IMG/VR virus record: IMGVR_UViG_3300028590_001001 | Location: 1 to 41,780 of that record | Strand: one strand, 5' to 3' | DNA length: 41,780 nt | Origin: a virus | Shown here: piece by piece, positions 26,409-41,042 of the stretch | Layout of the letters: every line of letters starts with the position of its first letter | Numbering within the stretch: the first letter of the stretch is position 1 | The notes under the pieces: model-generated | What the model was told of the DNA's origin: nothing | Database searches by the model: none | Seen by the model: only the letters and a program-made list of their open reading frames with translations | Made by a program: the position numbers and the translations under genes

Positions 26409-28751
26409 TCACATGTCATCGTGCGCCCCCCTGTTGCGCGTTCGACTCAGCGCCTCGCCGAAGTCGATCAGCGCGTCCCCCAGCCATTCCTGCTTGCTGA
26501 CACCTTCCGGCGGCTGAAGCCCCCACACCAAGAGGCGCTGCTGCTTGATCGACGCGCCATCGCGGAAGCGCTCCGGTACGGACTGGAACCCTCGCCGTCG
26601 GAAGATGGCGTTAAGGAAGCGCTTGATGGGCGCCTGGTGGACGCCGGTGAGGCTGCACCAGGCCTTGTAGACGGCGTACCAGTCGGTAGTCTTGCCCGGC
26701 ATGGGCTTGAGCCCAGCGATCCGCTGCGCGAACAGTTCGTCGACAAAGTCGACGGGTGAGTCCTGAGCCAGGTCGATCAGCTCATTCTTGGCCGCGGTGA
26801 CCGGCGGTTTGGTGTGCGGATTGAAATTGCCCAGGTCGAGGTGCAGGAGGTAATCGTGCAGCGCAGCGATGCCGCCGCTCTCGACCTCCTCCGCCAGGGC
26901 AATGTAGTAGCTCTCCGGCTGGGTTAGCGGAGTCCAGATAACGCAATGGCGCCTGTCGTCCTCCTCCAGCACCACAGGCATGGCTTCGTTGGACAAGAAG
27001 ACCAGGTTGACGTGGTTGGCTTCGTCATACGCCGCGATATGCTTGGGATTGATGCGGATCCAGGTGCCAGTGACCAGCGTCTTCAGCTTGTTCTTTTGTT
27101 CGAAGCGATGCGCCTGCGCGACCACTTCATCGGCAATGAGGAAAAGCTTGCGGCTGGCCCAGTCGTTGTGCTTGTCGACCAGCGCATCTTGGTCCAGCAG
27201 ACGGCCGTACGGGCCATAGATGCCCATGACGGTCTCGAAGAAGATGTTCTTGCCGCCACCCTGGCCACCATGAACAACGATCGTGGTCTTCATCTTCGCG
27301 CCGGGATGCTGCAGCGGGTAGGCGCACCACCGGAGCACCCACTCGTACAGTGCTTGCGAATTCGCTTCGCCACTGCACATCCAACGAAGGTGGTCTAGCA
27401 GGCGGGTGCACGCTCCGGCCTTGGGTTCGGTTGGCCAACCACCCCACAGATTGCAGGTGATGTTGGCATCCGTGCCGGCGGGATCGAAGCCGACTTCCGT
27501 CTGACGCACGATCTGGCGATCGGCGTGCTCCATCCACGCCTTGTGGATGTCGGCACGGATGCAGACGTTACGCACGTCAGTCAGCGCCAGCAGGCAGTGC
27601 TCCTGATGATCGAATACCGCGCCATTCCCGCCGAACACCAGCGCGAAGCGCTCCAGCAGTTCGTCAAGATGTTGCAACGGCCGCAGCTTGTCGCCCCGCC
27701 CCCCGGTGTGGGATGGAACGGCGCGCAGCGCAGGGGGTGACCATTTCAGTTCGTCCAGGCGCCGGGCAACCTGTGCGGTGATGGTGGCAAGGCCCTCCAG
27801 CGTGTGCAGGTCGTTGAAGTCAGTGAGCTTGCCGTTGCCCGCTTCGTGCTTCTCGCGACGAGCATCGTTGTCGCCGAAGGTGGGAGCGAGCCATTCGCCG
27901 CCCACCGCCAAGGCGGCGGCACCCGCGGCGGTGACGCCGGGATTGCCTTCGGTGAAGCAGTCGTCGTCGGCGCAGATTAGGATCTTCGCGCGCTTGTACC
28001 GCTTGCGCAGCGCCTCGGCCACCGGCTTGAGATTGCCAGCGTCGAACGCGCAGGCGACGGGGTAGCCGGTGGCGGCGTGCAACGATGCAGCCGTCGCGTA
28101 CCCTTCGGCCACTAGCACGATCCAGTGGGGCTGGTGGCCGAGCAGGTGGAAGTGTCCCTTCTTTCCCAGGCCGACAGGCCAGAATTCCTTCGAAGGGCGC
28201 TTTCCTTCTTTCGCCTGGGCAGTGCTACGTAGGAACTGCAGGCCGTGGATCTTGCCGCCGGTGTCAACCAGCGGCAGTACTGCTGTGTTGTTGGGAGTGA
28301 ACTTCAGGCCGTAGGCCCCGACCCCCTTGGTATTGAGGTAGGGGCTGTCGCCTTCCAGCTGCAGCCGCGCCCACATTCTTCTCGCCTTCTCGGCAGCAGC
28401 GGCGGCTTCGTCAGCGCGCTGATGCTCTGCCGCCTTGGCTTGCTCCGCCCAGGCCTTCTTCAGGGCGTCGCGCTGTTCGGGGGTGATGCGGCGGGTATCG
28501 TCCTTCGGCAGGGCGATCTTCTGCGCGCCGTTGTCGTTGCCATGCCAGATCCCGTAGCTGCCGACGATCAGCAACCTGTCGATGGACGGCGACCACTCTT
28601 TCAGCAGGTACCACCCGCGGCGTTCGCGCCCGCCTTCCTGAGTGAACACTCGCACTGGCTTGTGCGTGCCAATGCGCAGATCGTTGTTCGGAAGGATGAG
28701 CCCCGCGTCCTGCAATTGGTGCAGCACGTCATCGTAGTTGGAAGCCATCAT
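26409..28751 (-). CDS. Phage primase-helicase (Toprim plus SF3-type helicase, P4 alpha-like), 780 aa
   Basis: Toprim domain at residues about 205-270: VLVAEGYATAASLHAATGYP, then the acidic ICADDD. Superfamily 3-type helicase in the second half: Walker A VVHGGQGGGKN, Walker B LFLIADEV, then VNLVFLSNEAMPVVL. The Lys/Glu/Ala-rich stretch near residues 95-130 is a linker. It would start and drive phage replication. ATG at 28751 (or 28748) is chosen because GGAAG lies 8 bases upstream; the GTG at 28772 is a longer option. It is the only replication gene visible, so replication probably relies on this single multi-domain protein plus host factors. Confidence 0.9.
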   Translation of the reverse strand: MMASNYDDVLHQLQDAGLILPNNDLRIGTHKPVRVFTQEGGRERRGWYLLKEWSPSIDRLLIVGSYGIWHGNDNGAQKIALPKDDTRRITPEQRDALKKAWAEQAKAAEHQRADEAAAAAEKARRMWARLQLEGDSPYLNTKGVGAYGLKFTPNNTAVLPLVDTGGKIHGLQFLRSTAQAKEGKRPSKEFWPVGLGKKGHFHLLGHQPHWIVLVAEGYATAASLHAATGYPVACAFDAGNLKPVAEALRKRYKRAKILICADDDCFTEGNPGVTAAGAAALAVGGEWLAPTFGDNDARREKHEAGNGKLTDFNDLHTLEGLATITAQVARRLDELKWSPPALRAVPSHTGGRGDKLRPLQHLDELLERFALVFGGNGAVFDHQEHCLLALTDVRNVCIRADIHKAWMEHADRQIVRQTEVGFDPAGTDANITCNLWGGWPTEPKAGACTRLLDHLRWMCSGEANSQALYEWVLRWCAYPLQHPGAKMKTTIVVHGGQGGGKNIFFETVMGIYGPYGRLLDQDALVDKHNDWASRKLFLIADEVVAQAHRFEQKNKLKTLVTGTWIRINPKHIAAYDEANHVNLVFLSNEAMPVVLEEDDRRHCVIWTPLTQPESYYIALAEEVESGGIAALHDYLLHLDLGNFNPHTKPPVTAAKNELIDLAQDSPVDFVDELFAQRIAGLKPMPGKTTDWYAVYKAWCSLTGVHQAPIKRFLNAIFRRRGFQSVPERFRDGASIKQQRLLVWGLQPPEGVSKQEWLGDALIDFGEALSRTRNRGAHDDM

Positions 28752-28946
28752 TTCAGTAACTTCCAACCCCACTGTTTACACAGAAAGCGGGGTCCGAATT
28801 ACCCGCGTAGGGGGTGCCCAGGGAGGACCCATGCCCGGCCCATCCATTCAGGTTCGACCACTCGCCGCGCCTTACTGAAACGTGATGCCTCTGCGCGCGC
28901 GATCCCGCTTTCAACCGAGGGGGCCGGGGATTCGAAAGGATGCACG
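28752..28946 (-). other. Spacer upstream of the primase gene, with one doubtful ORF
   Basis: An open frame from ATG 28950 to 28753 (65 codons) overlaps the stop of the preceding small gene by 4 bases and ends just before the primase start, so coupling is conceivable. The amino-acid composition (many Ser, Arg, Gly, Pro and Asn residues) is not convincing. I see no promoter or terminator here. Confidence 0.3.
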
Positions 28947-29159
28947 TCATGCGCCGCCTCGCAGAGGCAGTGCGCGCTGCGCTGATCGACGTGCGTCTTC
29001 CTCGACAGCGATGCGATCGTACTCAGCGATGGCCTCCGCCTTCGTCATGGGCTCAACGTTCCCGCACAGCGCCGACCATGCTGCGAGCCATGCGGGCGCG
29101 GTGCGTCGTGCATTCGGCAAGCCCGGCTTGAGCGGGCTGTAGTGATTCCCCCTGTGCAT
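28947..29159 (-). CDS. Small hypothetical early protein (70 aa)
   Basis: Starts 4 bases after the stop of the gene at 29164. The C-terminal half (MTKAEAIAEYDRIAVEEDAR) is a convincing helix, while the N-terminal half is Pro/Ala/Trp-rich. An internal ATG giving a protein of about 33 aa is possible. No domain recognised. Confidence 0.45.
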   Translation of the reverse strand: MHRGNHYSPLKPGLPNARRTAPAWLAAWSALCGNVEPMTKAEAIAEYDRIAVEEDARRSAQRALPLRGGA

Positions 29160-29163
29160 GGCG

Positions 29164-29745
29164 CTAAGCCCCCGCGGCCTTGGGCAGCAAGCTCTGAAAC
29201 ACGCGCCGGATACCCAGCACGGCCGCGATTACATCGTCGGTCTCGTCGAGGATTCGGCCCACATGCGGCAGATCCTTGTCGTTGATCTGGCCGTCGGCGA
29301 GTGCGTGGGAAAGCGCCTCGAAGAGCTGCCCGACCTCAGTAGCCAGATGGGCCATGCCGGCAGCCTCAGCGCCGGCGGTGTGCTCGAGCATGCGCACTGG
29401 GTAGTAGCCGCGCCGCCTGCCCAGCTCGCGCTCACACTCAGCGCGATACGGCTCGGGCAGCGACATCACCCATGCATCTTCGAGGTCGGCCGGCAGCACC
29501 TTGAGCGTGCCGTCCATGTAGCGGCGGAGGATCTGACCGTTGTTCCGCATGTCGGCGATGAGCTCATCACCCTCGCCCAAGCGAAACTTCACCTGGCGCT
29601 GGTCCGGAGCCACACGCGCCAGGTACGCCTCAGCCACGACCATTGCGAACGTGTTGGCGTTCGTCGCCGTCTCGTCGAGCATCCGCCTCGTGTATCCGTA
29701 GATCACCGACTGCCGCATGGGCAGAAACTGACGCGCAGGCTTCAT
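29164..29745 (-). CDS. Hypothetical early phage protein (193 aa)
   Basis: Soluble, mostly helical protein in the early leftward operon, between the small membrane protein gene (4-base overlap) and the short gene before the primase. Features include YGYTRRMLDETATNANTFAM near the start and a Glu/Asp-rich C-terminal half. No cysteine cluster, helix-turn-helix or nucleotide-binding loop is visible. The position suggests a role in early regulation or replication, but the family is not recognised. Confidence 0.65.
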   Translation of the reverse strand: MKPARQFLPMRQSVIYGYTRRMLDETATNANTFAMVVAEAYLARVAPDQRQVKFRLGEGDELIADMRNNGQILRRYMDGTLKVLPADLEDAWVMSLPEPYRAECERELGRRRGYYPVRMLEHTAGAEAAGMAHLATEVGQLFEALSHALADGQINDKDLPHVGRILDETDDVIAAVLGIRRVFQSLLPKAAGA

Positions 29746-30089
29746 GCGCCGCCCCCAGCCTTGCGGCCAGACTGCGCGCCATGTCGAACCTTCTGCCCTT
29801 CCGCACCCGTCTTGCCTTCACCGCGTTGCGTGCATTCGATGCGCGCCGCGGTGTTGGTCAGGTCCTTGCAGTCCTCTTTGGCCCGGTACAACTCCCACGC
29901 GAACGTCGCACCCAGGGCAAGGATGGTCAGGCCCAGGGCCAGCCAAAGGAACTTGGCTGTGTGCACGATTGAGTCATGCCGGCGCTCCTCAGCCTCTGGC
30001 CAGCGCCCCTGCAGTCGTCGGGCGGTGCTGGTGTTCAGCGCCATACCGAGGACCTCGGCGTCTGTCAGCGAGCGGCGTGCGCGGGGCAT
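29742..30089 (-). CDS. Small single-pass membrane protein (115 aa)
   Basis: ATG at 30089 lies one base after the cro stop. The first 45 residues are basic (MPRARRSLTDAEVLGMALNT), followed by a membrane segment (FLWLALGLTILALGATFAW) and a charged C-terminus with two cysteines. The upstream in-frame extension overlies cro and is rejected. Function unknown. Confidence 0.6.
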   Translation of the reverse strand: MPRARRSLTDAEVLGMALNTSTARRLQGRWPEAEERRHDSIVHTAKFLWLALGLTILALGATFAWELYRAKEDCKDLTNTAARIECTQRGEGKTGAEGQKVRHGAQSGRKAGGGA

Positions 30090-30090
30090 G

Positions 30091-30291
30091 TCAGACAGCC
30101 CCCTGTCGTTGCGGCGGCGGAAACTTGTCGGGCATGTGGAGCCGGAGCCACATCTGACGGGCAGGCGGGATTGGCTTGTCCTCATCCCACTGCGCCACGG
30201 CAGCCCTACTTACGTTGAACACTTGGGCCAACGCCGAATCGGTGTCGACACCCAGGGTCTCTCGGACTGCCTTCTTGGTGAGCTCGCTCAT
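30091..30291 (-). CDS. Cro-like repressor (66 aa)
   Basis: Small helix-turn-helix protein of the Cro type: VRETLGVDTDSALAQVFNVS then RAAVAQWDEDKPIPPARQMW. In this family the protein binds operators and favours lytic growth. It is the first gene of the long leftward operon and is divergent from the CI-like gene across a 72-base region holding three operator dyads. No Shine-Dalgarno is visible before the ATG, and the predicted promoter puts the transcript start only a few bases upstream, so the mRNA may be nearly leaderless. Confidence 0.85.
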   Translation of the reverse strand: MSELTKKAVRETLGVDTDSALAQVFNVSRAAVAQWDEDKPIPPARQMWLRLHMPDKFPPPQRQGAV

Positions 30292-30300
30292 GGGGACGAC

Positions 30301-30329
30301 ACGCTAAGCGGTCTTTCGTCATTTGTAAA
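30301..30329 (-). promoter_or_regulatory. Predicted cro (leftward, PR-like) promoter
   Basis: -35 TTTACA (plus 30324-30329) and -10 TAGCGT (plus 30301-30306) with a 17-base spacer on the minus strand. The -10 is weak. Operator 30305-30316 overlaps the -10 and operator 30327-30338 overlaps the -35, as expected for a repressed promoter. Confidence 0.5.
30305..30316. promoter_or_regulatory. Repressor operator dyad 1 (TAAGCGGTCTTT)
   Basis: Matches WAAG-N4-CTTW, nearly palindromic. Overlaps the predicted cro -10. Confidence 0.65.
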
Positions 30330-30338
30330 GCCCTCTTT
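30327..30338. promoter_or_regulatory. Repressor operator dyad 2 (AAAGCCCTCTTT)
   Basis: Second copy of the dyad, 22 bases from the first (about two helical turns). Overlaps the predicted cro -35. Confidence 0.65.
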
Positions 30339-30351
30339 GCGTCTCGGTTGT

Positions 30352-30363
30352 TAAGCTGGCTTT
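30352..30363. promoter_or_regulatory. Repressor operator dyad 3 (TAAGCTGGCTTT)
   Basis: Third copy, 25 bases from the second, abutting the ATG of the CI-like gene at 30364. This leaves no room for a Shine-Dalgarno, so the repressor mRNA may be leaderless, as known for lambda cI from PRM. Binding here would block repressor synthesis. Confidence 0.65.
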
Positions 30364-30810
30364 ATGTCCCGAATGACAATCGGCCAGCGGCTCAGCGCCG
30401 CCATGAAGAAGGCAGGCTTGGCGAAGCCAGCTGACTTGGCGCGTGCCTCCGATAGCACGACCCCGACAATCAGCAACTGGCTCAACGACAACGTCGTGCC
30501 CGAGCACGTGAAGGCCGAGCAACTGTTTCGCATCGCGCGCGCCGTTGGGCTTTCAGGCTATGAGTTGCTGACGGGTGAACCGGAACATGTGCCTCTCCGG
30601 GTTAGCGAAGAGCAGACCCCGTATGCGTCTCAGTCCGTGCAACCGGAGCAGTGGAGAGTCGCCTTCCAGCTGGTAGCCGAGGCGCTGGGCGAAGGCCTCT
30701 CCTTACCACCCGCGAAGCATGCAGAGGTCGTCTTGTTGACCTACGAACTGCTCACCGAGGGCATGCCCAGGGCGAAAGTGCTGCGGTTCGTCCGGACTGC
30801 TGCGGCCTAG
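30364..30810 (+). CDS. CI-like lysogeny repressor without peptidase domain (148 aa)
   Basis: The N-terminal helix-turn-helix (residues about 5-65: KKAGLAKPADLARASDSTTP then ISNWLNDNVVP) is of the lambda repressor type. The C-terminal 80 residues are helical (EQWRVAFQLVAEALGEGLSL) with no S24 Ser/Lys protease signature, so it cannot be inactivated by RecA-stimulated self-cleavage in the usual way. It is divergent from cro across three operators. It probably represses both the leftward promoter and the rightward promoter at 31750. Confidence 0.85.
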   Translation: MSRMTIGQRLSAAMKKAGLAKPADLARASDSTTPTISNWLNDNVVPEHVKAEQLFRIARAVGLSGYELLTGEPEHVPLRVSEEQTPYASQSVQPEQWRVAFQLVAEALGEGLSLPPAKHAEVVLLTYELLTEGMPRAKVLRFVRTAAA

Positions 30811-30827
30811 GCCGCAAGGGGAAGTTC

Positions 30828-31184
30828 ATGCACGACAAAGTGACGCGCCTCAGGCAACTGATGGCCGAGGCGGTTCCGCGTCCGGCACCCGCGATCGCCT
30901 CAGAAGAGGACGGCTGGGCCCGGTATCAGAGGTTTGCGGCGAATCAGCCAGAGCCCATCGCGCTGGACGACACTGACCGCGCACGTGCTGTACGCGCAAT
31001 CAATCGAATCGCGACCTGGCATAACGCCACATCCGCGCTAGTGGCTTGGTTGGATAACGCTGGCGCATCCGGCATTGGGGCGCTCGACGATGAGCAAGTC
31101 TCCCAGTTGAGGGAACACATGCAGCGGATCGAGGATTGCATCCATCAGGGCTTCGATTCGCCGTTCGCACCGCCCGCAAGTTAG
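30828..31184 (+). CDS. Hypothetical protein downstream of the CI-like repressor (118 aa)
   Basis: ATG at 30828 has an AAGGGGAAG Shine-Dalgarno. Only 17 bases from the repressor stop, so probably co-transcribed and expressed in the lysogen. Helical and acidic, with RARAVRAINRIATWHNATSA and LREHMQRIEDCIHQGF stretches and no recognisable domain. It converges with the lipoprotein gene with a small overlap. Confidence 0.65.
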   Translation: MHDKVTRLRQLMAEAVPRPAPAIASEEDGWARYQRFAANQPEPIALDDTDRARAVRAINRIATWHNATSALVAWLDNAGASGIGALDDEQVSQLREHMQRIEDCIHQGFDSPFAPPAS

Positions 31185-31666
31185 CGGCGCGGCTGGAGGT
31201 TGATGATTCTCACGTTCGTCCCTTCGGGACGAACGATGCAATCGTAGGCGCCGATCCGCAGCGCCCCAAATGCATTACTTGCTCGCAGTGTCACCACAAC
31301 CGTGCTCGTCCCGTCGCCGTTCTTAGTCACAGGCCAAGCACTGGTCCGATCGAACTGCGCGCTGTCGGGGTCGTGCAGCACACGCTTGATCGAAAGCATG
31401 CATGCGCCACGAGCAGAAGACTCCCATTTGGCCTGTCGCTGCCCTTCCCGAATCAGCTCTTCGCGCTCGCGCGCGACCTGCTGGAGTCTCGCCGCCTCTC
31501 GCGCCTCAGCCTGACGCTGCTCGGGGGTCAGCGCCGCAACCCGGGCGGCCTCGGCGGCTCGACGCTCGGCTCGCCCCTGCCTTTCGAGCTCTCCTTGGCT
31601 AGGCCCGCATCCCGCCACGGCCACGACCATGGCAACCCCAACCATCGTGCGCTTCCAGCAATCCAT
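31181..31666 (-). CDS. Predicted lipoprotein (161 aa), possible lysogenic conversion or superinfection-exclusion factor
   Basis: Signal with lipobox MVVAVAGC (Cys20), then a Glu/Arg/Ala coiled coil (residues about 25-80) and a small C-terminal beta domain with two cysteines (SARGACMLSIKRVLHDPDSA and IGAYDCIVRP). It is transcribed against its neighbours on both sides, typical of a moron. Many prophage lipoproteins at this location block superinfection; that role is inference. The Shine-Dalgarno is provided by a run of nine G (31672-31680), 5 bases before the ATG. Confidence 0.75.
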   Translation of the reverse strand: MDCWKRTMVGVAMVVAVAGCGPSQGELERQGRAERRAAEAARVAALTPEQRQAEAREAARLQQVAREREELIREGQRQAKWESSARGACMLSIKRVLHDPDSAQFDRTSAWPVTKNGDGTSTVVVTLRASNAFGALRIGAYDCIVRPEGTNVRIINLQPRR

Positions 31667-31671
31667 TGCGA

Positions 31672-31680
31672 CCCCCCCCC
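31672..31680 (-). repeat. Poly-G (G9) tract at the ribosome binding site of the lipoprotein
   Basis: Nine C on the plus strand, G9 on the coding strand, ending 5 bases before the lipoprotein ATG. Such tracts change length easily, which would alter or shift the Shine-Dalgarno; candidate for phase variation. Confidence 0.6.
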
Positions 31681-31716
31681 TACCTGGACAACCCAGACGA
31701 TAGCTTCACACCCCGC

Positions 31717-31728
31717 TAAGCGTCCTTT
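31717..31728. promoter_or_regulatory. Repressor operator dyad 4 (TAAGCGTCCTTT)
   Basis: Same WAAG-N4-CTTW pattern as the cro-cI operators, between the lipoprotein and the rightward promoter; could also control the lipoprotein. Confidence 0.6.
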
Positions 31729-31740
31729 CTGAAAAGTTGC

Positions 31741-31752
31741 AAAGACTGCTTG
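31741..31752. promoter_or_regulatory. Repressor operator dyad 5 (AAAGACTGCTTG)
   Basis: 24 bases after dyad 4. Overlaps the start of the TTGACA -35 element at 31750-31755. One end base deviates from the consensus. Confidence 0.5.
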
Positions 31753-31778
31753 ACATTACGCTAAGTGTGCTTAATGCT
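31750..31778 (+). promoter_or_regulatory. Predicted rightward (PL-like) promoter of the DGR operon
   Basis: Perfect -35 TTGACA (31750-31755). The best -10 candidates are TAATGC (31772-31777, 16-base spacer) or AATGCT (31773-31778, 17-base spacer). Operators 5 and 6 overlap it, so the CI-like repressor should silence it in the lysogen. The first gene downstream is DGR target 1, after a leader of about 130 bases. Confidence 0.65.
31762..31773. promoter_or_regulatory. Repressor operator dyad 6 (TAAGTGTGCTTA), perfect palindromic ends
   Basis: 21 bases after dyad 5, between -35 and -10 of the rightward promoter. TAAG and CTTA are exact reverse complements. Confidence 0.65.
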
Positions 31779-31803
31779 TCGCACCGGGTCGGTCATCGGC
31801 CTG

Positions 31804-31821
31804 GGCGACCGGCGGGTCGCC
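31804..31821 (+). other. GC-rich hairpin in the 5' leader of the DGR operon
   Basis: Arms GGCGACC (31804-31810) and GGTCGCC (31815-31821) with a GGCG loop. No T-run follows, so it is not a standard terminator. Could stabilise the leader or take part in antitermination; purely speculative. Confidence 0.5.
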
Positions 31822-31913
31822 ACCCCGCCGGACTCCCCTTCCGGTCGCCATAGGCCCCTCCCCTGGCCGTAGGCACTGACCCGCCGGCGCTCTCCTTTCA
31901 TCCGGAGGCCGCC

Positions 31914-32315
31914 ATGTCCAACGCCGCAGCTCGCTTCACCTACCCCAACGGGGACGCCACCAGCGCCCTTACCGTCGTCGATACGACCACCGGCCTGGAA
32001 TGGCTGCGCAAGCCGCTAGGCCGCTTCGAGCACCAGCAGGCCATCGATACGTGCGCCGCGGTCGAACGAGACGGTGGCGGCTTCCGCCTGCCCACGCGTG
32101 CCGAGCTTCTCACGCTCGTCGACATCACCCGGCACAGCCCGGCCATCGACAACGAGGCCTTCCCTGCCATCGACGGCGGTTGGTTCTGGAGCAGCGACCT
32201 GTGCGCCTGGTCCTCGGCGTCCGCGTGGCTCGTCAATTTCAACTACGGCCTCGTCTACGACTCCCACCGCTACCTCAACGGGTTCGCGTTGGCCGTGCGC
32301 CGCGTCGGTCAGTAA
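31914..32315 (+). CDS. DGR target protein 1 (DUF1566/Lcl-type C-type lectin fold), 133 aa
   Basis: A minimal DUF1566 domain: DTTTGLEWLR, HQQAIDTCAAV, GFRLPTRAELLTLVD, then AWSSASAW and the variable region up to RRVGQ. Variable residues lie at about 109-125. The fold family (FGE/C-type lectin like) displays diversified side chains on a binding surface in DGR targets. There is no signal peptide, membrane segment or obvious virion-anchoring domain. Strong GGAGG at 31904-31908. First gene of the rightward operon and the target farthest (about 4 kb) from the template. Confidence 0.9.
   Translation: MSNAAARFTYPNGDATSALTVVDTTTGLEWLRKPLGRFEHQQAIDTCAAVERDGGGFRLPTRAELLTLVDITRHSPAIDNEAFPAIDGGWFWSSDLCAWSSASAWLVNFNYGLVYDSHRYLNGFALAVRRVGQ
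32204..32309 (+). repeat. DGR variable repeat 1 (VR1)
   Basis: Aligns without gaps to TR 36283-36388. Twelve differences, all at template adenines: AAC codons became CTC, TAC, GAC or TCC. The last 31 bases, free of adenine, are identical and form the IMH-like end. Confidence 0.95.
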
Positions 32316-32339
32316 TCGGCCCATTTGCCCATCTGACCG
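32306..32339 (+). repeat. Inverted repeat after VR1 (CGGTCAG ... CTGACCG)
   Basis: Perfect 7-bp arms with a 20-base loop, spanning the VR end and stop codon. A hairpin or cruciform at this position is required for efficient retrohoming in the Bordetella phage DGR. Absent from the template. Confidence 0.6.
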
Positions 32340-32350
32340 GAGACGCTGCC

Positions 32351-32569
32351 ATGTTCGACGCCCATACCTCGTCCGACGACCAGCTCGACCAGACGCTGGC
32401 CGCCCTCCCTCATGTCGCCACGCGCTGCCTGCTCGCTTGCAGCAGCCACGACCACACGCACGCCGAAGAGCTGCGGGCTGGTCATAACCGCCGCCATGCC
32501 CCGCGCCTGCACGTGGCCAGCGAGCGCGCGGAGATCCGCGCCCGCGAGATTGGCCGGGAAGCACGCTGA
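32351..32569 (+). CDS. Small hypothetical protein (72 aa)
   Basis: ATG at 32351 with GGAG upstream. His-rich middle (CSSHDHTHAEELRAGHNRRH) and a basic C-terminal helix. Begins directly after the VR1 inverted repeat. Family not recognised. Confidence 0.55.
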   Translation: MFDAHTSSDDQLDQTLAALPHVATRCLLACSSHDHTHAEELRAGHNRRHAPRLHVASERAEIRAREIGREAR

Positions 32570-32769
32570 TGGCTGCCCTCGTCATCGAGCTCGGCGCCGT
32601 GCGCCGCGCCCACCAGCAGCTGGAGCGCGCTGGTCGCCCCGACATGCGCCGCGAGGCCACGCGCCTGGTGATCTCCGAGAACCAGCACGGGCGCAACGGC
32701 TACATCGTCGCCAGCCATGTGCAGCTGCTGTGCATGCAACACGCGCGCACGCCGGGCGGTGCCGCATGA
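32569..32769 (+). CDS. Small hypothetical protein (66 aa)
   Basis: Starts at the last base of the preceding stop codon. Helical, with AHQQLERAGRPDMRREATRL; no motif recognised. Confidence 0.55.
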   Translation: MAALVIELGAVRRAHQQLERAGRPDMRREATRLVISENQHGRNGYIVASHVQLLCMQHARTPGGAA

Positions 32770-32852
32770 CCGCGCCCGCTCTCGCCCTCATGGTCCTGGC
32801 CTTCGCCGCGCTCGGCGCAGAAGCACGCCTCACCCGGAAGCCGCGCGCATGA
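32766..32852 (+). CDS. Tiny membrane peptide (28 aa)
   Basis: ATGA overlaps on both sides. MTAPALALMVLAFAALGAEA is a hydrophobic segment, followed by a short basic tail. Too short to classify; its reality rests on the consistent overlaps. Confidence 0.4.
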   Translation: MTAPALALMVLAFAALGAEARLTRKPRA

Positions 32853-33043
32853 ACGAAGCCCCCGCCTTCGACCGCCGCGCGGACGTGCCCAATGCAGCAC
32901 TGCCTTCCTACCTGCACCTGCAGGACCACAGCGCCTGCGACCACCACCCATGCTCCGTCTGCCTCGGGAGGCGGATCGTCAAAGGCAATCGCGACATCGA
33001 GCCCAGCAGCTGGTGGGCCCACGCCTTAAGGAGCCATGCTTGA
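32849..33043 (+). CDS. Small hypothetical protein with Cys/His cluster (64 aa)
   Basis: 4-base overlap with the preceding frame. HSACDHHPCSVCLGRRI contains three Cys and three His, a possible zinc site. Family unknown. Confidence 0.5.
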   Translation: MNEAPAFDRRADVPNAALPSYLHLQDHSACDHHPCSVCLGRRIVKGNRDIEPSSWWAHALRSHA

Positions 33044-33345
33044 ACACCATCTTGATCTTCGCCGCGTTCGCGGCACTCAACGTGCTGCTCGTCACCCTGG
33101 TGGCCAGCCGCTACGAGCGCGAGCTGGTTGATGCCGAGGCCCGAGCCGCCGAAGCCGAAACGGGCGTTCCCCTGCAGGTGCGGGCTGATGCCGTGGCCGC
33201 AGCGCATCAGGCATCGCTCGACAACCTCAAGCGCCTGCGAGTCGTGCCAGACGAAGACCGCCGCCGGCTGTGGCTGAGCGTGCGCGATGCGTGCGATGCG
33301 GAGATCCAGGACGTGCATGCCGCCAAGCAGGCGGGTGTTGCATGA
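33040..33345 (+). CDS. Small membrane-anchored coiled-coil protein (101 aa)
   Basis: A TTG start at 33040 is chosen because AAGGAG lies 6 bases before it and the preceding gene stops at the same place. The N-terminal membrane segment (ILIFAAFAALNVLLVTLVAS) is followed by a charged helix rich in Ala and Glu. Function unknown. Confidence 0.55.
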   Translation: MNTILIFAAFAALNVLLVTLVASRYERELVDAEARAAEAETGVPLQVRADAVAAAHQASLDNLKRLRVVPDEDRRRLWLSVRDACDAEIQDVHAAKQAGVA

Positions 33346-33509
33346 CGCGTCAGCCCTACCTCGGCGCCCTGGAGAGCATCCAGGCGACCACGCCCGACTT
33401 CATCCCGCCCGTCCAGCCACGCATGCGCGCCGCCACCGCCCTCTGCTGGCTGCTAGTGGCGTTCCTGATCGTCCTGACCCTTGCCGCATTTGGCGGCCAC
33501 TGGAGCTGA
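33342..33509 (+). CDS. Small membrane protein (55 aa)
   Basis: ATGA overlap with the gene upstream. C-terminal membrane segment ALCWLLVAFLIVLTLAAF. Function unknown. Confidence 0.5.
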   Translation: MTRQPYLGALESIQATTPDFIPPVQPRMRAATALCWLLVAFLIVLTLAAFGGHWS

Positions 33510-33510
33510 C

Positions 33511-33801
33511 ATGCCTGAGTTGCAGCCCAAGATGCGCGACGCGCTTCTCGCCGCCATCGCCACGCCTTCCCACACGCTGCAGCGCGCCTGCGGTGGCTAC
33601 GTCGCCCTGGGCACATCCACCGTGCGCCACAGCGGGCCGAAGCTCTTCCAGGCCTTCACGCGTCGCACCGTGAATCGCCTGCTCGACGCGGGCTTGGTGA
33701 CGTTCGACGAACCCGAGTTCCCCACCCGTATCACGCTGACCGAGGCCGGCGTGCGGAGTGCGCAGGAGTTGGAATACGCAGGAACGCGCCATGGCCTGTG
33801 A
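33511..33801 (+). CDS. Small protein with winged-helix-like character (96 aa)
   Basis: ATG at 33511, one base after the preceding stop. TRRTVNRLLDAGLVTFDEPE followed by TRITLTEAGVRSAQELE reads like a recognition helix and wing of a winged-helix DNA-binding protein. Could regulate this operon; speculative. Confidence 0.55.
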   Translation: MPELQPKMRDALLAAIATPSHTLQRACGGYVALGTSTVRHSGPKLFQAFTRRTVNRLLDAGLVTFDEPEFPTRITLTEAGVRSAQELEYAGTRHGL

Positions 33802-34087
33802 TACCTGCGGCCGCACTGGCACGCCCCTTGTGGACCTACTGAGTATCTACCAGACCGACAAGGTGAAGCAGGTCTGCCGCGAGTGCGAGACGGTGATCAA
33901 CCGACAGCTCTGGAATGCACAGGACGTCACGGGAAAGATCCAGCGCAGCCTCATGACGCGCTTTCTGGACCACCTCCGCTGGCGCAACCACTCGCAGCGG
34001 CACCCCTGCAGCCAGCCCGGCTGCATCCAGACCGACGGCGCCCCGTGCGCGTATCCGCAGTGCCCGCAGCGGAGTGCGCAGGGATGA
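33791..34087 (+). CDS. Zinc-ribbon-like small protein (98 aa)
   Basis: Overlaps the preceding gene by 11 bases. CDTCGRTG and CREC form a treble-clef-like pair of CxxC motifs, and further cysteines occur in CSQPGC and CAYPQC. Probably binds zinc. Function unknown. Confidence 0.55.
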   Translation: MACDTCGRTGTPLVDLLSIYQTDKVKQVCRECETVINRQLWNAQDVTGKIQRSLMTRFLDHLRWRNHSQRHPCSQPGCIQTDGAPCAYPQCPQRSAQG

Positions 34088-34293
34088 GCCTACCGACTCG
34101 CAGCCGCCAGAAGCAGCACGAGAGCGAGCAGATCGCGAAGGACACCGCTCGCTTCCTCGCCACGCGCGGCAACCGCATCGAGGTCTTGCCGGCCTTTGGC
34201 GCGCCGATGGGCTCCCCGCTCAAGACACGCCGCGAGCTGCATGACGAGTCCGGCGAACGCGCGAAGCGACGGCGAAAGCCCGAAGACGAATGA
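34084..34293 (+). CDS. Small basic hypothetical protein (69 aa)
   Basis: ATGA overlaps at both ends. Charged, with RFLATRGNRIEVLPAFGAPM in the middle and a C-terminal Arg/Lys cluster. No family recognised. Confidence 0.5.
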   Translation: MSLPTRSRQKQHESEQIAKDTARFLATRGNRIEVLPAFGAPMGSPLKTRRELHDESGERAKRRRKPEDE

Positions 34294-34535
34294 ACACCGC
34301 TCCACCCGCCCCGCGCCTGGGCAAGCAACTGAGGCGCGCGAACCAGCTGCTACGCGACACCGAACGCGTGCTGCACGACCTACCCGACCACCTCTGCCCT
34401 CGCCTGCTGCTGGAACGCATCCAGCTGCACCTGGCGAAGGACAACCCACCGCCAGGAGAACGCCCATGCCCAAAGAACTCACCGGACCCGATGCCCTGCA
34501 CGCGATCGCGCGCGAAAACGAGGGTCTCGGCCTGA
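34290..34535 (+). CDS. Small hypothetical protein (81 aa)
   Basis: ATGA overlap with the upstream gene. The first 50 residues look like a helical protein (LRRANQLLRDTERVLHDLPD); the rest overlaps the next gene and looks less coding-like. Confidence 0.4.
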   Translation: MNTAPPAPRLGKQLRRANQLLRDTERVLHDLPDHLCPRLLLERIQLHLAKDNPPPGERPCPKNSPDPMPCTRSRAKTRVSA

Positions 34536-34693
34536 CCGTCAATGCCGACCACTTCACGCGTCTCGCAAAGCAGTGGGAGGCGGCTGACCAGTACATCGAA
34601 CTGCTCGAAACCCAGCTCGCCGACCAGGGCAAGCCCATCCCGCCGCGGCCTCTGCCGCGTCACGCCGTCACGCCGTCCGATCGGCGCCACTGA
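34466..34693 (+). CDS. Small hypothetical protein (75 aa)
   Basis: AGGAG lies 8 bases before the ATG. Helical (DALHAIARENEGLGLTVNAD, LAKQWEAADQYIELLETQLA) with a Pro/Arg-rich tail. Overlaps the preceding frame by 70 bases and ends 11 bases before DGR target 2. This frame is the more convincing of the two. Confidence 0.55.
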   Translation: MPKELTGPDALHAIARENEGLGLTVNADHFTRLAKQWEAADQYIELLETQLADQGKPIPPRPLPRHAVTPSDRRH

Positions 34694-34704
34694 GGAGCAC
34701 CTCC

Positions 34705-35292
34705 ATGGAAAGCATCTCGATTCACGCGGACCAGGTCACCGTCCACCTGCACGCCGCTGGCAGTGGCAAAGCCCTGGCCGACCTCGCTGCTGCCGAACTG
34801 GCCACTCGCCAGATCGTGCAGGTCGATCTCGCTTCTGCAGAAGCCAACAACGCACCGCGCTTCATCAAGGTTTTCGCAGACGGCAGCGTCGACGAGCAGT
34901 CCAGCGATCGCACCGACCACGTCGCGGTGCTCGATCGTGCCAACAAGCTCATGTGGTCTGTCGAATCCCTGGGCGACCCCGACGACAGCGACAGTGGCGT
35001 CGCGCACGACCACTGCAACGAGCTGTGCCGCAATCTGCGGCTGCTCGACCACGACGACTGGCGCCAGCCCACGCGCGCGGAGCTGGCCTCGCTCATCGAC
35101 GACACGCGCCACGAGCCGGCCATCGATACGAACTTCTTCCCGCGCGTGAAGCCGCGCTGGCACTGGACGAGCACGCCGGCCGCCTGGTCCTCGGCGTCCG
35201 CGTGGGGCGTCCATTTCGACGACGGCGACGTCCTCGACCTCCACCGCAGCTACTACGGGTTCGCGTTGGCCGTGCGCCGCGTCGGTCAGTAG
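34705..35292 (+). CDS. DGR target protein 2 (DUF1566-type), 195 aa
   Basis: GAGGAG Shine-Dalgarno at 34692-34697. An N-terminal domain of about 70 residues (MESISIHADQVTVHLHAAGS) is not found in the other targets. The DUF1566 core follows: DHVAVLDRANKLMWSVESLG, DWRQPTRAELASLIDDTRHE, then AAWSSASAW and the variable end GFALAVRRVGQ. Variable residues are about 169-185. The extra domain may be the part that links this target to a partner. No signal or membrane segment. Confidence 0.9.
   Translation: MESISIHADQVTVHLHAAGSGKALADLAAAELATRQIVQVDLASAEANNAPRFIKVFADGSVDEQSSDRTDHVAVLDRANKLMWSVESLGDPDDSDSGVAHDHCNELCRNLRLLDHDDWRQPTRAELASLIDDTRHEPAIDTNFFPRVKPRWHWTSTPAAWSSASAWGVHFDDGDVLDLHRSYYGFALAVRRVGQ
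35177..35286 (+). repeat. DGR variable repeat 2 (VR2)
   Basis: Gap-free match to the whole TR. Fourteen differences, all at template adenines. Unlike VR1 and VR3, no inverted repeat is found just downstream. Confidence 0.95.
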
Positions 35293-35328
35293 TTGGCCCC
35301 TTTGCCCTTCCTTCCAGGAGCACATCAC

Positions 35329-35754
35329 ATGAAAAAGCTCACGATGATCAAGCTGGCCGCCGATGGCCAGGAACTGCCCGCCGATGCGACCGACTGGGTC
35401 GCCGTGAAGCTGCCCGAGCACGGACTGATCTTCACAGCCACGCAGATCAATGCCGAGGAGACGGACCAGGAATCGCTGCAGGCGCAGGCTTCGGCGCTGA
35501 CGCTACTCGATGCCAACGACTGGGACCTGCCCACTATCGACGAGCTGCAGCTGCTCATTGATCGCGAGCGCTACAACCCGGCGGTGCACACGGAGTACTT
35601 CCGCGACATCCAGAACGACTGGTATTGGAGCAAGACCCCGGCCGCCTGGTCCTCGGCGTCCGCGTGGCTCGTCCTTTTCGACGGCGGCGGCGTCAGCTCC
35701 TCCCGCCGCGGCTACAGCGGGTTCGCGTTGGCCGTGCGCCGCGTCGGTCAGTAG
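35329..35754 (+). CDS. DGR target protein 3 (DUF1566-type), 141 aa
   Basis: ATG at 35329 is preferred over an upstream TTG at 35293, since CAGGAG lies at 35315-35320. A short N-terminal part (MKKLTMIKLAADGQELPADA) leads into a divergent DUF1566 core (LDANDWDLPTIDELQLLIDR, DWYWSKTPAAWSS) and the variable region ending GFALAVRRVGQ. The most heavily mutagenised target (19 of 23 template adenines changed, including the single His codon, CAC to CGC). It lies directly upstream of avd. Confidence 0.9.
   Translation: MKKLTMIKLAADGQELPADATDWVAVKLPEHGLIFTATQINAEETDQESLQAQASALTLLDANDWDLPTIDELQLLIDRERYNPAVHTEYFRDIQNDWYWSKTPAAWSSASAWLVLFDGGGVSSSRRGYSGFALAVRRVGQ
35639..35748 (+). repeat. DGR variable repeat 3 (VR3)
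   Basis: Gap-free match to TR with 19 differences, all at adenines. Confidence 0.95.
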
Positions 35755-35769
35755 TCGGCCCATCTGACC
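35746..35769 (+). repeat. Inverted repeat after VR3 (GGTCAG ... CTGACC)
   Basis: Perfect 6-bp arms with a 12-base loop that contains the stop codon. Same arms as after VR1 but a shorter loop. Confidence 0.55.
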
Positions 35770-35780
35770 TGATCTGACAG

Positions 35781-36221
35781 ATGACGTCCCGCTTCCAGCC
35801 CCCGCCGATCATCAAGGCATCGCAGCGCCTGCTCGTGGACATCGAGCAGGCGGTGCGGTCCTTCGATCGTTACCACAAGTACCAGATCGGCAGCGATTTG
35901 CGCCGGGCTGCGGCCCATGTCGTGCACCTCGCATCACGCGCGTGGCGCGACATGGCGCATCGCCGCCGGTGGGTGGGCCAGCTGGTGTGGGCCGTCGACG
36001 AACTCAAGCAGTACATGCAGACGGCCAAGCTGATCCAGGCTTTCCGCAGCTTCAGGCAGTTCGAGCATCTTGCGCGCCAGGCTGAGCAGCTTGGCGCCCA
36101 GGTCGGCGGGTGGAACCGCCAGCTTTCCCCTCAAGCCCAGAATCCGTCCGGCCAGCAGTCCGGTGCGGAGCGTGGCCAGAAACTGAGTACCCGTGCCGCC
36201 TCCGCGGGGGCCAATCGATGA
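35781..36221 (+). CDS. avd: Accessory variability determinant (Avd-like), 146 aa
   Basis: Avd forms a pentameric four-helix barrel that binds the reverse transcriptase and template RNA. The sequence is helical and strongly basic: SQRLLVDIEQAVRSFDRYHK, LRRAAAHVVHLASRAWRDMA, RWVGQLVWAVDELKQYMQTA, FRQFEHLARQAEQLGAQVGG, that is four helices in order. The C-terminal 30 residues are Gln/Ser/Arg-rich and probably disordered. The stop overlaps the reverse transcriptase ATG by 4 bases. Length and position (between last target and TR/RT) match known DGRs. Confidence 0.85.
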   Translation: MTSRFQPPPIIKASQRLLVDIEQAVRSFDRYHKYQIGSDLRRAAAHVVHLASRAWRDMAHRRRWVGQLVWAVDELKQYMQTAKLIQAFRSFRQFEHLARQAEQLGAQVGGWNRQLSPQAQNPSGQQSGAERGQKLSTRAASAGANR

Positions 36222-37579
36222 CGAAGCCGCGCTATCCGCATCCGGGCTGCGCGGCCTGGTCGCAAGTGTACGGGGAGGCGGCCGCCTGGTCCTCGGCGTC
36301 CGCGTGGAACGTCAATTTCAACAACGGCAACGTCAACAACAACCACCGCAACAACAACGGGTTCGCGTTGGCCGTGCGCCGCGTCGGTGAGTTTCAAGGG
36401 GAAGGGAAGCCCGCACTGCTACAGGAGCTGTATCACGCCTGGCGCCGGGCACGCAGGCAGAAGGTGCCCAGCCACAACCAGCTGCGTTTCGACGCACGCT
36501 GGATGGACGGGCTGATCCAGCTGGAGCGCGAGATCCTCGCCGGTACTTGGTCGCCTAGCCGTTCGACTTGCTTCATCGCCACGCGCCCGAAGGCGCGAGA
36601 GATCCATGCTCCGGACTTTGGCGATCGCGTGGTGCACCACTGGCTCGTGCCGCAGCTCGAGGCCGTCTACGAGCGCGGCTTCATCCACGACAGCTTCGCA
36701 AACCGCCGCGGCAAGGGCACGCACGCGGCCGTGCGCCGCGCGCAGACCTTCGCCCGTCAGGTCCACAGCGGCCAGGGCGGCGGGTACTACCTGCAGCTGG
36801 ACATCCACAACTTCTTCAACAGCATCCACCGCCCCACGCTGTGGTCCCTGTTGAAGCCACGACTGCGGCGAGCGGGACTGCCCGAACAGGCATTGCGCGT
36901 CACTCATGCGCTGCTGCGACAGGATCCGGGCAAGGCCGGCGTGCAGGTGCGCGCCACGGCCGCGGAGCTGGCGCAGGTGCCGGCGCACAAGCGGCTGGCC
37001 AATGCCCGCCCAGGCTGCGGGCTGCCCATCGGCAATCTGTCCTCGCAGTTCTTCGCAAACGTCTATCTGGACGCTTTAGACCAGTTCGCTAAGCACGTGC
37101 TGAAGGCCAAGCGCTACCTGCGCTACGTGGACGACTTCGTGCTGTTCCACCACGACCGCGCCCAGCTCGCCCGCTGGGAGGGTCAGATCACGGAGTTTCT
37201 CGCCGGTACGTTGCGCCTGTCGCTCAAGCCGGAGATCCGCCTGCGTCGGCTGACCGACGGCCTCGACTTTCTGGGCTACGTGATCTACCCGACGCACACG
37301 CTTGCGCGCCCACGCGTCATCACGCACCTGAGGCGGGCCTTTGCCCAATGGGAGGGCAGCCACGTCGCCGGCGGCCGCATCCGCGCCACGCCTGGAGATC
37401 TCGATCGCATCCGCTGTGTGGTGGCCAGCTACGGCGGCCACCTGCAGCACGCCAACAGCCATCGCCTGCGCGCGGCAATTCGCCGGCGCTTTCCCTGGCT
37501 TCGTACAGCCGCGGTACCCCGCCGCTTCCATCATCGCCTGTCTGTCAGGCGCATCACTTTGAAGGTGCGGTCCGCATGA
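36218..37579 (+). CDS. DGR reverse transcriptase (453 aa), with the template repeat in its 5' coding part
   Basis: Copies template RNA into adenine-mutagenised cDNA. Motifs: LQLDIHNFFNSIH (catalytic Asp195), GLPIGNLSSQFFANVYLDAL (DGR-group motif 4), and RYLRYVDDFVLF (YVDD, residues 303-306), followed by LDFLGYVIYP. The RT-like part begins only near residue 65 (ALLQELYHAWRRARR). Residues 21-57 are the translated template: AWSSASAW, Asn-rich stretch, GFALAVRRVG. ATG at 36218 is supported by the 4-base overlap with avd; a GTG at 36374 inside the template end would give a normal-length RT (401 aa) without the Asn-rich leader. Confidence 0.93.
   Translation: MTKPRYPHPGCAAWSQVYGEAAAWSSASAWNVNFNNGNVNNNHRNNNGFALAVRRVGEFQGEGKPALLQELYHAWRRARRQKVPSHNQLRFDARWMDGLIQLEREILAGTWSPSRSTCFIATRPKAREIHAPDFGDRVVHHWLVPQLEAVYERGFIHDSFANRRGKGTHAAVRRAQTFARQVHSGQGGGYYLQLDIHNFFNSIHRPTLWSLLKPRLRRAGLPEQALRVTHALLRQDPGKAGVQVRATAAELAQVPAHKRLANARPGCGLPIGNLSSQFFANVYLDALDQFAKHVLKAKRYLRYVDDFVLFHHDRAQLARWEGQITEFLAGTLRLSLKPEIRLRRLTDGLDFLGYVIYPTHTLARPRVITHLRRAFAQWEGSHVAGGRIRATPGDLDRIRCVVASYGGHLQHANSHRLRAAIRRRFPWLRTAAVPRRFHHRLSVRRITLKVRSA
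36279..36388 (+). repeat. DGR template repeat (TR)
   Basis: 110 bases. All 23 adenines sit within 36308-36357, in eleven Asn codons (ten AAC, one AAT) and one CAC; the flanks (29 and 31 bases) contain none. After 36388 the TR reads GAG where the three VRs read CAG TA, marking the end of the repeat (IMH versus IMH*). Confidence 0.95.
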
Positions 37580-37767
37580 CCCTACCCCGGCTTCAGTACG
37601 TGACAGAGGGCCTCGCCATCCGATCACGCATTCGCGCACTCACCGACCAGCAATTGGCCGACCTTGTGGCGCTGTACACCGAGAGCTGCCGCCTGGAGAT
37701 CATCACCCTCAACACAGCTCGCCGAGAGCAACACCGGCGCAAGGCGGAGGCCCAGAAGCGGAAATGA
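37576..37767 (+). CDS. Small helical protein downstream of RT (63 aa)
   Basis: ATGA overlaps with the RT stop and with the excisionase start. Basic helical protein (LAIRSRIRALTDQQLADLVA, then a Lys/Arg-rich C-terminus). Family unknown. Possibly an HRDC-like or accessory DGR factor by position, which is speculation. Confidence 0.6.
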   Translation: MTLPRLQYVTEGLAIRSRIRALTDQQLADLVALYTESCRLEIITLNTARREQHRRKAEAQKRK

Positions 37768-37976
37768 AGCTCGTGGAGGCCCACCAATTCGTGGAGAAGC
37801 ACTTCGCGCCGGCCAGCCGGCCGGCGGACATCACGCTGCAGCGTTGGATGCGGGCTGGCCGCTTGCCTGGCCGGAAGATCGGCAAGACCTGGTATGTCGA
37901 CGAGGACGCCTTCCTGGCCGGCAATGAGGACGCCGGCGTGGAGGACCTGGTCAGCCGGGTTCTGGGAAAGGGGTAA
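37764..37976 (+). CDS. Excisionase-like DNA-binding protein (HTH_17 type), 70 aa
   Basis: LVEAHQFVEKHFAPASRPAD then TLQRWMRAGRLPGRKIGKTW is a winged helix of the excisionase/MerR-like type that starts with a recognition helix and a wing containing the conserved Lys and Trp. Six bases before the integrase gene. Expected to bend attachment DNA and direct the integrase to excision. Confidence 0.8.
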   Translation: MKLVEAHQFVEKHFAPASRPADITLQRWMRAGRLPGRKIGKTWYVDEDAFLAGNEDAGVEDLVSRVLGKG

Positions 37977-37982
37977 GCTCAG

Positions 37983-39080
37983 ATGATGGGACGCGCCCGA
38001 TCACGCAGCCGCGCCGGCTGGCCACCGAACTTGTACCCCTGCAAGGGTGGGTACAAGTACCGGCACCCACAGACCCGGAAGGAGACGTGGATGGGCATGG
38101 ATAAGGACCAAGCCTTCGCGGCCGCTCGCAAGCTCAATGCCGTCCTGCTGGTCAGCAACGACCTGGTCGCCAAGGTCGCCGCCGGCGCCAAGACCGTGGC
38201 CGAGGCGATCAATGTGCTGCGCGCGGATGACCTGCCGCACCGCGGCTGGGCGCCGAAGACGGCCGCCTGGTACGAGGTCTTCCTGAAGCGCATCGAGGCC
38301 GATCTCGGAAAGCGGCCGGTCCACGAGGTTTCCGTGCGCGACTGCGCGGAGTACATCCGACAGGTGACAGAATCGGCGCGCAGCCGGCAGACCTACCGCC
38401 TGGTGCTCGGCTGGATTTTCGCCTGCGCCCTGCAGGAGGGGTGGATCTCCGAGAACCCCGCGCTGCAAACCCTCAAGCACCGCGCCAAGCGTAAGCGCGA
38501 GCGTCTGACCGTCGAGATCTATCGCGCCATCCATGCCAGCGCGCCGCTGTGGCTGCAGAACGCCATGGATCTGTCGCTGTTGAGTCTGCAGCGCCGGGAG
38601 GACATCGTGTCGGCCCAGTTCGCACACGTGCGCGAAGGGGTGTGGCGAGTGGTGCCGCAGAAGACGGAGAACAGCAGCCAGGCTAGGCTGGAGATCGTAC
38701 TGACGCCGGACCTGCAGGCGGTCACTGATCGCTGCCGCGACCAGGTGGTCTCGCCCTACCTGGTGCACCGCCTGCCGGAGAAGCAGAAGCCCCGTGGCCA
38801 CCAGGCCGCCGCGCGATCGCACCCCACCCAGGTCTTGCCCGAACAGCTCACGCGCGAGTTCGCGTCGATTCGTGACCGGCTGGAGCTAGGCGGGGATCAC
38901 CCGCCCACATTCCACGAGATCCGCAGCCTGGGTGCCGCCCTGCTGATGTCCGAGGCCGGCTGGACTAAGCAGCAGGTGCAGGAGCTGCTCGCGCACCAAG
39001 AACTGTCCACGACCGAGATCTACCTCGAAGACCACGATTTGCCTTGGACTCGCGTGACACCGGGACTCAAATTGCCTTGA
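37983..39080 (+). CDS. int: Tyrosine-type phage integrase (365 aa)
   Basis: Lambda Int-like. The N-terminal arm-binding part is NLYPCKGGYKYRHPQTRKE (about residues 16-34). The core-binding domain spans about 85-165, and the catalytic domain has Arg204 (SLQRREDIV), Lys227 (PQKTE), His311 and Arg314 (HEIRSLG), His338 (LLAHQ) and Tyr347 (TEIYLED). It catalyses integration and excision. It reads toward the tRNA-Pro edge but is 2.2 kb away from it, with four minus-strand cargo genes between. Confidence 0.95.
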   Translation: MMGRARSRSRAGWPPNLYPCKGGYKYRHPQTRKETWMGMDKDQAFAAARKLNAVLLVSNDLVAKVAAGAKTVAEAINVLRADDLPHRGWAPKTAAWYEVFLKRIEADLGKRPVHEVSVRDCAEYIRQVTESARSRQTYRLVLGWIFACALQEGWISENPALQTLKHRAKRKRERLTVEIYRAIHASAPLWLQNAMDLSLLSLQRREDIVSAQFAHVREGVWRVVPQKTENSSQARLEIVLTPDLQAVTDRCRDQVVSPYLVHRLPEKQKPRGHQAAARSHPTQVLPEQLTREFASIRDRLELGGDHPPTFHEIRSLGAALLMSEAGWTKQQVQELLAHQELSTTEIYLEDHDLPWTRVTPGLKLP

Positions 39081-39772: not shown

Positions 39773-40225
39773 TCAAATAACTGCGATGGCCGGTGGCACG
39801 ACTGTGATCTGGTCACGTTGCGTGATCTTCAACGACAGCCCACGCAACTCCACGTCGTCCACCACTGCGCGCATTCGCAACGTACAAGGACCAGTAATCT
39901 CGAACGGAGACAGAACGATCTGGCCGTGGATGACGGACATCAGGCTCTCGTCTGCACCTTCCGGCGCCGCCGGCGGCATTGTCTCGGGAGGCAGATGCCC
40001 AACGACCAACTGCTCATCGTCGCGCAGAAGCCGAAACGAAACACTGGTGGGTGGCTCGTGCGCCGAGAAGATCACACGCACGAAGACACAGAGCTTGGGC
40101 AGCGTTGCTGGGAAGGACTCTAACTGCATACCGCCGGTGTAGCACCCAACGAGCGAGATTTTGCCGTTGACCTCTTCTCGAATGTCGTCACAGAAGATGC
40201 CGCCAATCGATCGCTGGATCCTCAC
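39773..40225 (-). CDS. DUF6941-like hypothetical protein (150 aa)
   Basis: The N-terminal FCDDIREEVNGKISLVGCYT is the pattern I associate with DUF6941 proteins, which are beta-sandwich-like and uncharacterised. The GTG start overlaps the antitoxin stop by 4 bases, so it may be the third gene of the toxin-antitoxin operon. No catalytic residues apparent. Confidence 0.65.
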   Translation of the reverse strand: MRIQRSIGGIFCDDIREEVNGKISLVGCYTGGMQLESFPATLPKLCVFVRVIFSAHEPPTSVSFRLLRDDEQLVVGHLPPETMPPAAPEGADESLMSVIHGQIVLSPFEITGPCTLRMRAVVDDVELRGLSLKITQRDQITVVPPAIAVI

Positions 40226-41041: not shown

Positions 41042-41042
41042 T

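Follow-up and report, generated by a model that had tools for sequence, protein, structure and literature searches.

Dyads, promoters and DGR genes in the immunity region

The window (IMGVR_UViG_3300028590_001001, 41,780 bases; the whole stretch of DNA that was analysed) follows the lambda/P22 topology. On the PR side, cro is followed by a CII-like gene and a primase gene, and the order continues toward terminase, portal, head and tail genes. Downstream of PL, all genes lie on the plus strand, in the order DGR target 1, small genes, targets 2 and 3, avd, the reverse transcriptase (RT) with the TR, a small gene, xis and int. From avd through RT, orf and xis to int the genes are tightly packed, with overlapping or near-abutting ends. 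The features of this region are as follows.

29164..29745, minus strand, CII-like activator, downstream of cro
30091..30291, minus strand, Cro-like protein, 66 aa, P22_Cro/YdaS type (weak match, below the Pfam cut-off)
30301..30329, minus strand, PR-like promoter of cro: -35 TTTACA (30329-30324), 17-base spacer, -10 TAGCGT (30306-30301)
30305..30316, operator dyad TAAGCGGTCTTT, overlapping the PR -10/spacer (motif scan and relatives)
30327..30338, operator dyad AAAGCCCTCTTT, overlapping the PR -35 (motif scan and relatives)
30352..30363, operator dyad TAAGCTGGCTTT, directly adjoining the start codon of cI (motif scan and relatives)
30364..30810, plus strand, CI-like repressor, 148 aa, HTH and helical C-terminal part
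30828..31184, plus strand, conserved 118-aa protein, located after cI in phage-type relatives
31181..31666, minus strand, lipoprotein-like gene, divergent from PL, in the variable slot that separates PL from the cI operon
31717..31728, candidate third site TAAGCGTCCTTT, exact match without conservation
31741..31752, conserved operator dyad AAAGACTGCTTG, running into the PL -35
31750..31778, plus strand, PL-like promoter: TTGACA (31750-31755), 16-17 bases, TAATGC/AATGCT
31762..31773, conserved operator dyad TAAGTGTGCTTA, over the PL -10
31914..32315, plus strand, DGR target 1 (Lcl_C), VR1 at 32204-32310
34705..35292, plus strand, DGR target 2, VR2 at 35181-35287
35329..35754, plus strand, DGR target 3, VR3 at 35643-35749
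35781..36221, plus strand, avd
36218..37579, plus strand, DGR reverse transcriptase, TR at 36283-36389 inside the RT frame
37764..37976, plus strand, excisionase
37983..39080, plus strand, integrase

The motif WAAGNNNNCTTW (WAAG-N4-CTTW) was counted by program across the window, as an earlier note on this DNA had proposed. Six exact matches were found in the 41,780 bases (23709, 30305, 30327, 30352, 31717 and 31762), compared to a mean of 0.25 and a maximum of 3 in 100 dinucleotide shuffles of the window. The earlier note had placed six dyads in the two regions; five of these are exact, but the copy at 31741 reads AAAGACTGCTTG, ends in CTTG and thereby fails the last W, leaving it a near match. 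The sixth exact copy, at 23709, lies within the terminase gene and was missing from that note. Start-to-start spacings were 22 and 25 bases in the first group and 24 and 21 in the second, in agreement with the range of 21-25 bases given there.

A sigma-70 weight matrix was used to predict promoters along the whole window, plus and minus strand. The PL site at 31750 (+) ranked second of all sites in the window, and the perfect TTGACA ascribed to the second group was found at 31750-31755. The PR site at 30329 (-) ranked seventh of the 11 sites above threshold. On the plus strand, the matrix detected no above-threshold promoter-like site other than PL between 31700 and 39276. A simpler promoter/terminator scan yielded zero promoters, missing PL itself, and three terminator-like sites versus 5.0 expected. 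In each group, two conserved dyads overlap the -35 and -10 of the promoter. Thus, three predicted operators lie between the divergent cI and cro genes, and the same dyad recurs over a second early promoter past cI, that of the operon with xis and int (two conserved sites and one unconserved), as in a lambda/P22-type switch. The OR/OL-like architecture proposed earlier is supported in this respect, and the second group sits on the promoter of the operon that carries the DGR, xis and int.

A dyad reaches up to or into the cI start codon (30364) in the window and in most same-immunity relatives. The scant space for a ribosome site suggests that the cI message is leaderless.

The DGR is recognizable by its RT, Avd and TR/VR pairs with adenine-specific differences, the putative mutagenesis being read here from the fixed VR pattern. 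Compared to the TR, 12, 14 and 19 of 23 adenines are changed in VR1, VR2 and VR3, respectively, and non-adenine differences amount to 1/84 in each of the three VRs. Since the TR lies within the RT frame, the RT N-terminus would be TR-encoded, and among 80 relatives (the best 80 RT loci), 78 have an Asn-rich TR-encoded stretch in the open frame that precedes the RT core. Overlap of TR and RT-ORF is a known class (PMC3521204). All RT matches in named phages are below 60% identity. Bordetella phage BPP-1 shares avd, TR, RT and adenine-directed change with the window, its RT being 27.5% identical over 79%. The BPP-1 DGR target is the tail tip gene mtd, located beside structural genes, whereas the window has three Lcl_C targets in an early operon.

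Comparison with the P22 immunity region

Operators of P22 were taken from the P22 record, which annotates OL and OR for the c2 repressor. All three annotated OR sites carry an exact WAAG-N4-CTTW (3/3, spacings 25 and 23), and the annotated OL contains one exact copy together with degenerate copies; the dyad core thus occurs at the annotated operators that define the P22 c2 class. A blind dyad finder (see below), applied to 8.5 kb of P22 with the minimum cluster distance lowered to 500, returned TTAAG-N4-CTTAA with both clusters inside the annotated OL and OR. The dyad had been described as new and the operators as unrelated. Neither description can be kept, because the annotated OR and OL of P22 have the identical dyad core: the predicted operators of the window are of P22 c2 type and are not new.

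The likeness to P22 immC extends beyond the operator core. In both, three OR sites lie about two helical turns apart, OL is found beyond the repressor gene and over an early promoter, Cro is P22_Cro-like, and a CII-like gene follows cro. The window Cro-like protein could be aligned locally with P22 Cro around VSRAAVAQW/ISDAAVSQW. In contrast to P22, the window repressor has 148 aa and no S24 half. Within the P22 stretch 28000-36500, no DGR or RT is annotated, and P22 is not known to carry one.

Neither the domain search nor the structural model revealed an S24 peptidase domain in the window repressor. The RecA-responsive S24 C-terminal domain that it lacks is found in 20 of the 46 repressor candidates of the DGR set described below. 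Because the 148-aa CI has no such domain, it is doubtful whether classical SOS induction applies to this repressor. An AlphaFold model of the protein (pLDDT 83, pTM 0.48) was compared with known structures, and its N-terminal part fits P22 c2-DNA structures (best 3jxb_D, TMt 0.90, Foldseek E 0.012). As modelled, the likeness comprises the N-terminal fold only; homology along the whole protein, which defines the P22 c2 family, was not found, and the window CI does not qualify as a full relative of c2. Sequence searches of the PDB yielded no significant hit, CI having no match at E 0.01. No match to the CI protein was found in named phages, and comparison with named-phage DNA gave two weak matches, both to Stenotrophomonas phage S1.

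Conservation among relatives and other immunity types

Relatives were collected by a CI protein scan (7 loci) and a profile scan (12 viral loci and 22 Stenotrophomonas-type genome loci). Thirteen same-immunity loci extend as far as the second place, and each of them has both dyad groups; 11 of these are the window and loci from the CI scans, and L048 and L071 come from an RT scan. The fragments L005, L007 and L019 stop short of the second place, and L005 matches the window over the CI protein and the immunity region. Some loci share a contig (L006/L012/L064, L009/L013 and L011/L014). Twelve loci were aligned; L018, nearly identical to L017, was omitted. Over its eight specified columns, the -35 dyad showed a mean conservation of 99%, compared to 46% for the 40 columns upstream of it. 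In 12/12 loci, TTGAC is found at the identical place, and a second dyad lies 21-23 bases further, over the -10, again in 12/12. The dyad at 31717 has an exact counterpart in none of the 11 other loci, with weak CAAG forms in L014 and L071. The family arrangement is therefore 3+2: cro and cI are separated by three sites, and a TTGAC promoter located 1.2-1.5 kb past cI is covered by two. Of the two groups of three described in the earlier note, the first stands, but the alignment rules out a 3+3 arrangement for the family. The 31717 dyad, between PL and the divergent lipoprotein-like gene, may be a private extra site.

In L009 and L011, the slot corresponding to 31181-31666 of the window is occupied by different-looking membrane-type ORFs, and it looks like a place for lysogen-expressed genes.

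A DGR is located downstream of the second operator group in the window, L012, L048 and L071. Operators are also present in L008, L013, L014, L015, L017, L018 and L020, in which no RT was found in the available downstream DNA; the sequence of L008 extends to xis and int. L010 and L016 are too short to judge DGR presence. Because same-immunity relatives without a DGR have the second group too, a DGR-specific origin of this group was rejected, and it is best read as an OL/PL element older than the DGR. The DGR is therefore cargo of a pre-existing PL operon, and the predicted operator control is not particular to it.

CI and Cro relatives were also encoded at 21 Stenotrophomonas-type genome loci (L021-L041). 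An invariant dyad TAAGCTGGCTTG precedes cI in 21/21 of these, and no second dyad group was found within 4 kb. Seven of them were compared with 20 window genes, mostly structural, and the sole match was an integrase fragment in L040. These loci are possibly a domesticated switch.

Other immunity types were analysed through the RT. The best 80 loci among the matches listed in an RT scan were considered; their RTs are at least 57% identical to that of the window, so that only this DGR family is covered. In 65 of them plus the window (66 loci), the 9 kb preceding avd were screened blindly, with no use of the window motif, for dyads of any sequence that recur in two clusters separated by 0.7-3.5 kb. 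Fifteen of the best 80 loci were left out: in most cases the upstream DNA was short, L088 nearly duplicates L087, and for some there was no good reason. Eight of the fifteen were added to the search at a later stage, and L067, L081, L082, L085, L089, L113 and L114 were excluded throughout. The 66 loci are not independent and form 59 clusters at 90% identity.

A two-cluster dyad scoring above every one of 528 dinucleotide shuffles was found in 47/66 loci, and above the 99% shuffle level in 50/66. The remaining 16 gave no signal at the 99% level. The window is among the 50, with a score of 56.3 just under the top shuffle (56.7). None of 36 real 9-kb pieces taken away from the immunity region reached the 99% level, and one of the eight loci added later scored above all shuffles. 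The dyads differ between loci (TTAGG, TTACC, ATAGC, TACAG, ATGCA and others) and match within each phage. Beside the first cluster, a right-hand ORF is present in 46 of the 50 loci, window included; these ORFs carry HTH_3 (29), HTH_31 (25) and Peptidase_S24 (20) domains, the families overlapping, and clustering at 35% identity divides them into 22 groups. On the left-hand side, 84 ORFs were considered, counting overlapping frames, and YdaS (29) and P22_Cro (26) matches were found among them. L035 was dropped from the CI alignment owing to a stop in its reading.

The strongest promoter-like site between switch and avd lies within the second cluster in 42/50 loci and elsewhere in 8/50. When each OR was compared with all PL regions, the own PL was the best match to the own OR dyads in 33/50 loci and among the top three in 40/50, and 0 of 20,000 permutations equalled this, although both clusters had been selected together, so that the matching is not wholly independent. 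The window PL, with its degenerate dyads, ranked only seventh of 50. The matching across loci thus points to many immunity types, the phages of which keep the DGR (Lcl_C targets, avd, TR and RT) below a PL that is predicted to be repressor-controlled.

In L078 (2672-3392), the repressor has an extra N-terminal HTH ahead of a degenerate old HTH and has kept the C-terminal part of the window CI family. At both places, a dyad of AATTCG type replaces the earlier one. Together, these changes are what co-evolution of a repressor with both operator groups predicts.

A proposed model for control of hypermutation

Dyads, predicted promoters, gene order, conservation and the matching of OL and OR dyads within each phage, all read from the DNA itself, make it likely that the locus is a P22/lambda-type switch with a repressor acting on OR and OL and with a DGR in the PL operon that is shut off in the lysogen and switched on by infection or induction. 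The CI-like repressor, with the Cro-like protein competing, would occupy the three sites between cro and cI and thereby cover PR and the start of cI; on the two conserved sites of the second group it would cover the -35 and -10 of PL. From the within-phage matching and L078 we infer that one repressor binds both groups. PL would be an old early promoter of the phage group, with an operon below it that carries the DGR in the window and many relatives. Repressor bound to OL in a lysogen would shut off the targets, TR RNA, RT and excisionase together, and upon infection or induction PL would turn them on together. The identity of CI as the binder, operon-length transcription from PL and silence in the lysogen are the parts of the model that we infer. 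DGR hypermutation is probably silent in dormant phages and active during infection or reactivation, as judged from this arrangement.

A functional precedent for the effect, by analogy and not for the architecture, is the hankyphage, a Mu-like Bacteroides phage. When its CI-like repressor RepC was silenced, most phage genes were expressed more strongly, and the RepC-silenced strain was the only one for which significant DGR activity was reported in virions; ordinary lysogen cultures also showed DGR variation (PMC12135933). The likeness lies in a CI-like repressor whose silencing precedes DGR activity in virions. Unlike the window phage, the hankyphage is transposable, has a tail fibre target and no PL/xis/int operon, and the part of the report available describes no mapped operator on the DGR promoter (PMC12135933). 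Given the variation in hankyphage lysogen cultures, repression of the DGR in lysogens may be leaky. In the part of the literature on DGRs with repressors or immunity that was covered, no mapping of repressor operators on a DGR promoter was found.

The operators could be real while the DGR is transcribed mainly from an internal, repressor-blind promoter of its own, so that hypermutation persists in lysogens and PL control concerns xis and the first genes. The 4 kb from PL to avd, the lack of an identified antiterminator in the window and the DGR variation in hankyphage lysogen cultures (PMC12135933) would fit such a promoter. We consider it unlikely, since no above-threshold plus-strand site lies between PL and 39277, avd to int are closely packed with overlapping or near-abutting ends, and the operator-covered site is the best switch-to-avd promoter in 42/50 loci. 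Promoters inside the operon without a sigma-70 consensus, terminators or antitermination are possible.

A regulator other than CI, such as the Cro-like protein alone or a host protein, could be the binder of the dyads; Cro-type proteins use the same sites as their CI. This is very improbable, as the dyad type varies with the immunity type at both places, the repressor change in L078 accompanies a dyad change, and P22 c2 is annotated as binding the same dyad. Least credible of all is that the second group is a functionless remnant, arisen by chance or inherited: the unconserved copy at 31717 would agree with it, but the dyad columns are 99% conserved against 46% in the flanks, and the arrangement recurs with other dyads in heteroimmune phages.

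Returning to the predicted repressor control of the PL operon, it is conceivable, if short of likely, that in a large group of temperate phages the timing of targeted hypermutation is set by the immunity repressor, with mutator and Lcl_C targets being produced exclusively as early genes from PL. If so, every infection or induction would open a short diversification bout, and lysogeny would fix the resulting variant. Since the targets belong to the early genes instead of the tail genes, they would be expected to work inside or upon a cell that has just been infected or induced, rather than to serve adsorption. Their place in the early operon raises the question of what role a hypervariable lectin-like protein has there. 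The link between repressor and DGR is directly testable from sequence, with named operators, a named promoter and same-immunity relatives with and without a DGR, and dozens of heteroimmune replicates are available.

Near the right end of the window, a pair consisting of an HTH protein and a partner protein, which we take to be RelE/HigB-like, is encoded at 40222-41095 (minus strand). The best promoter-like site of the whole window, at 41069 (-), lies near the start of this pair.
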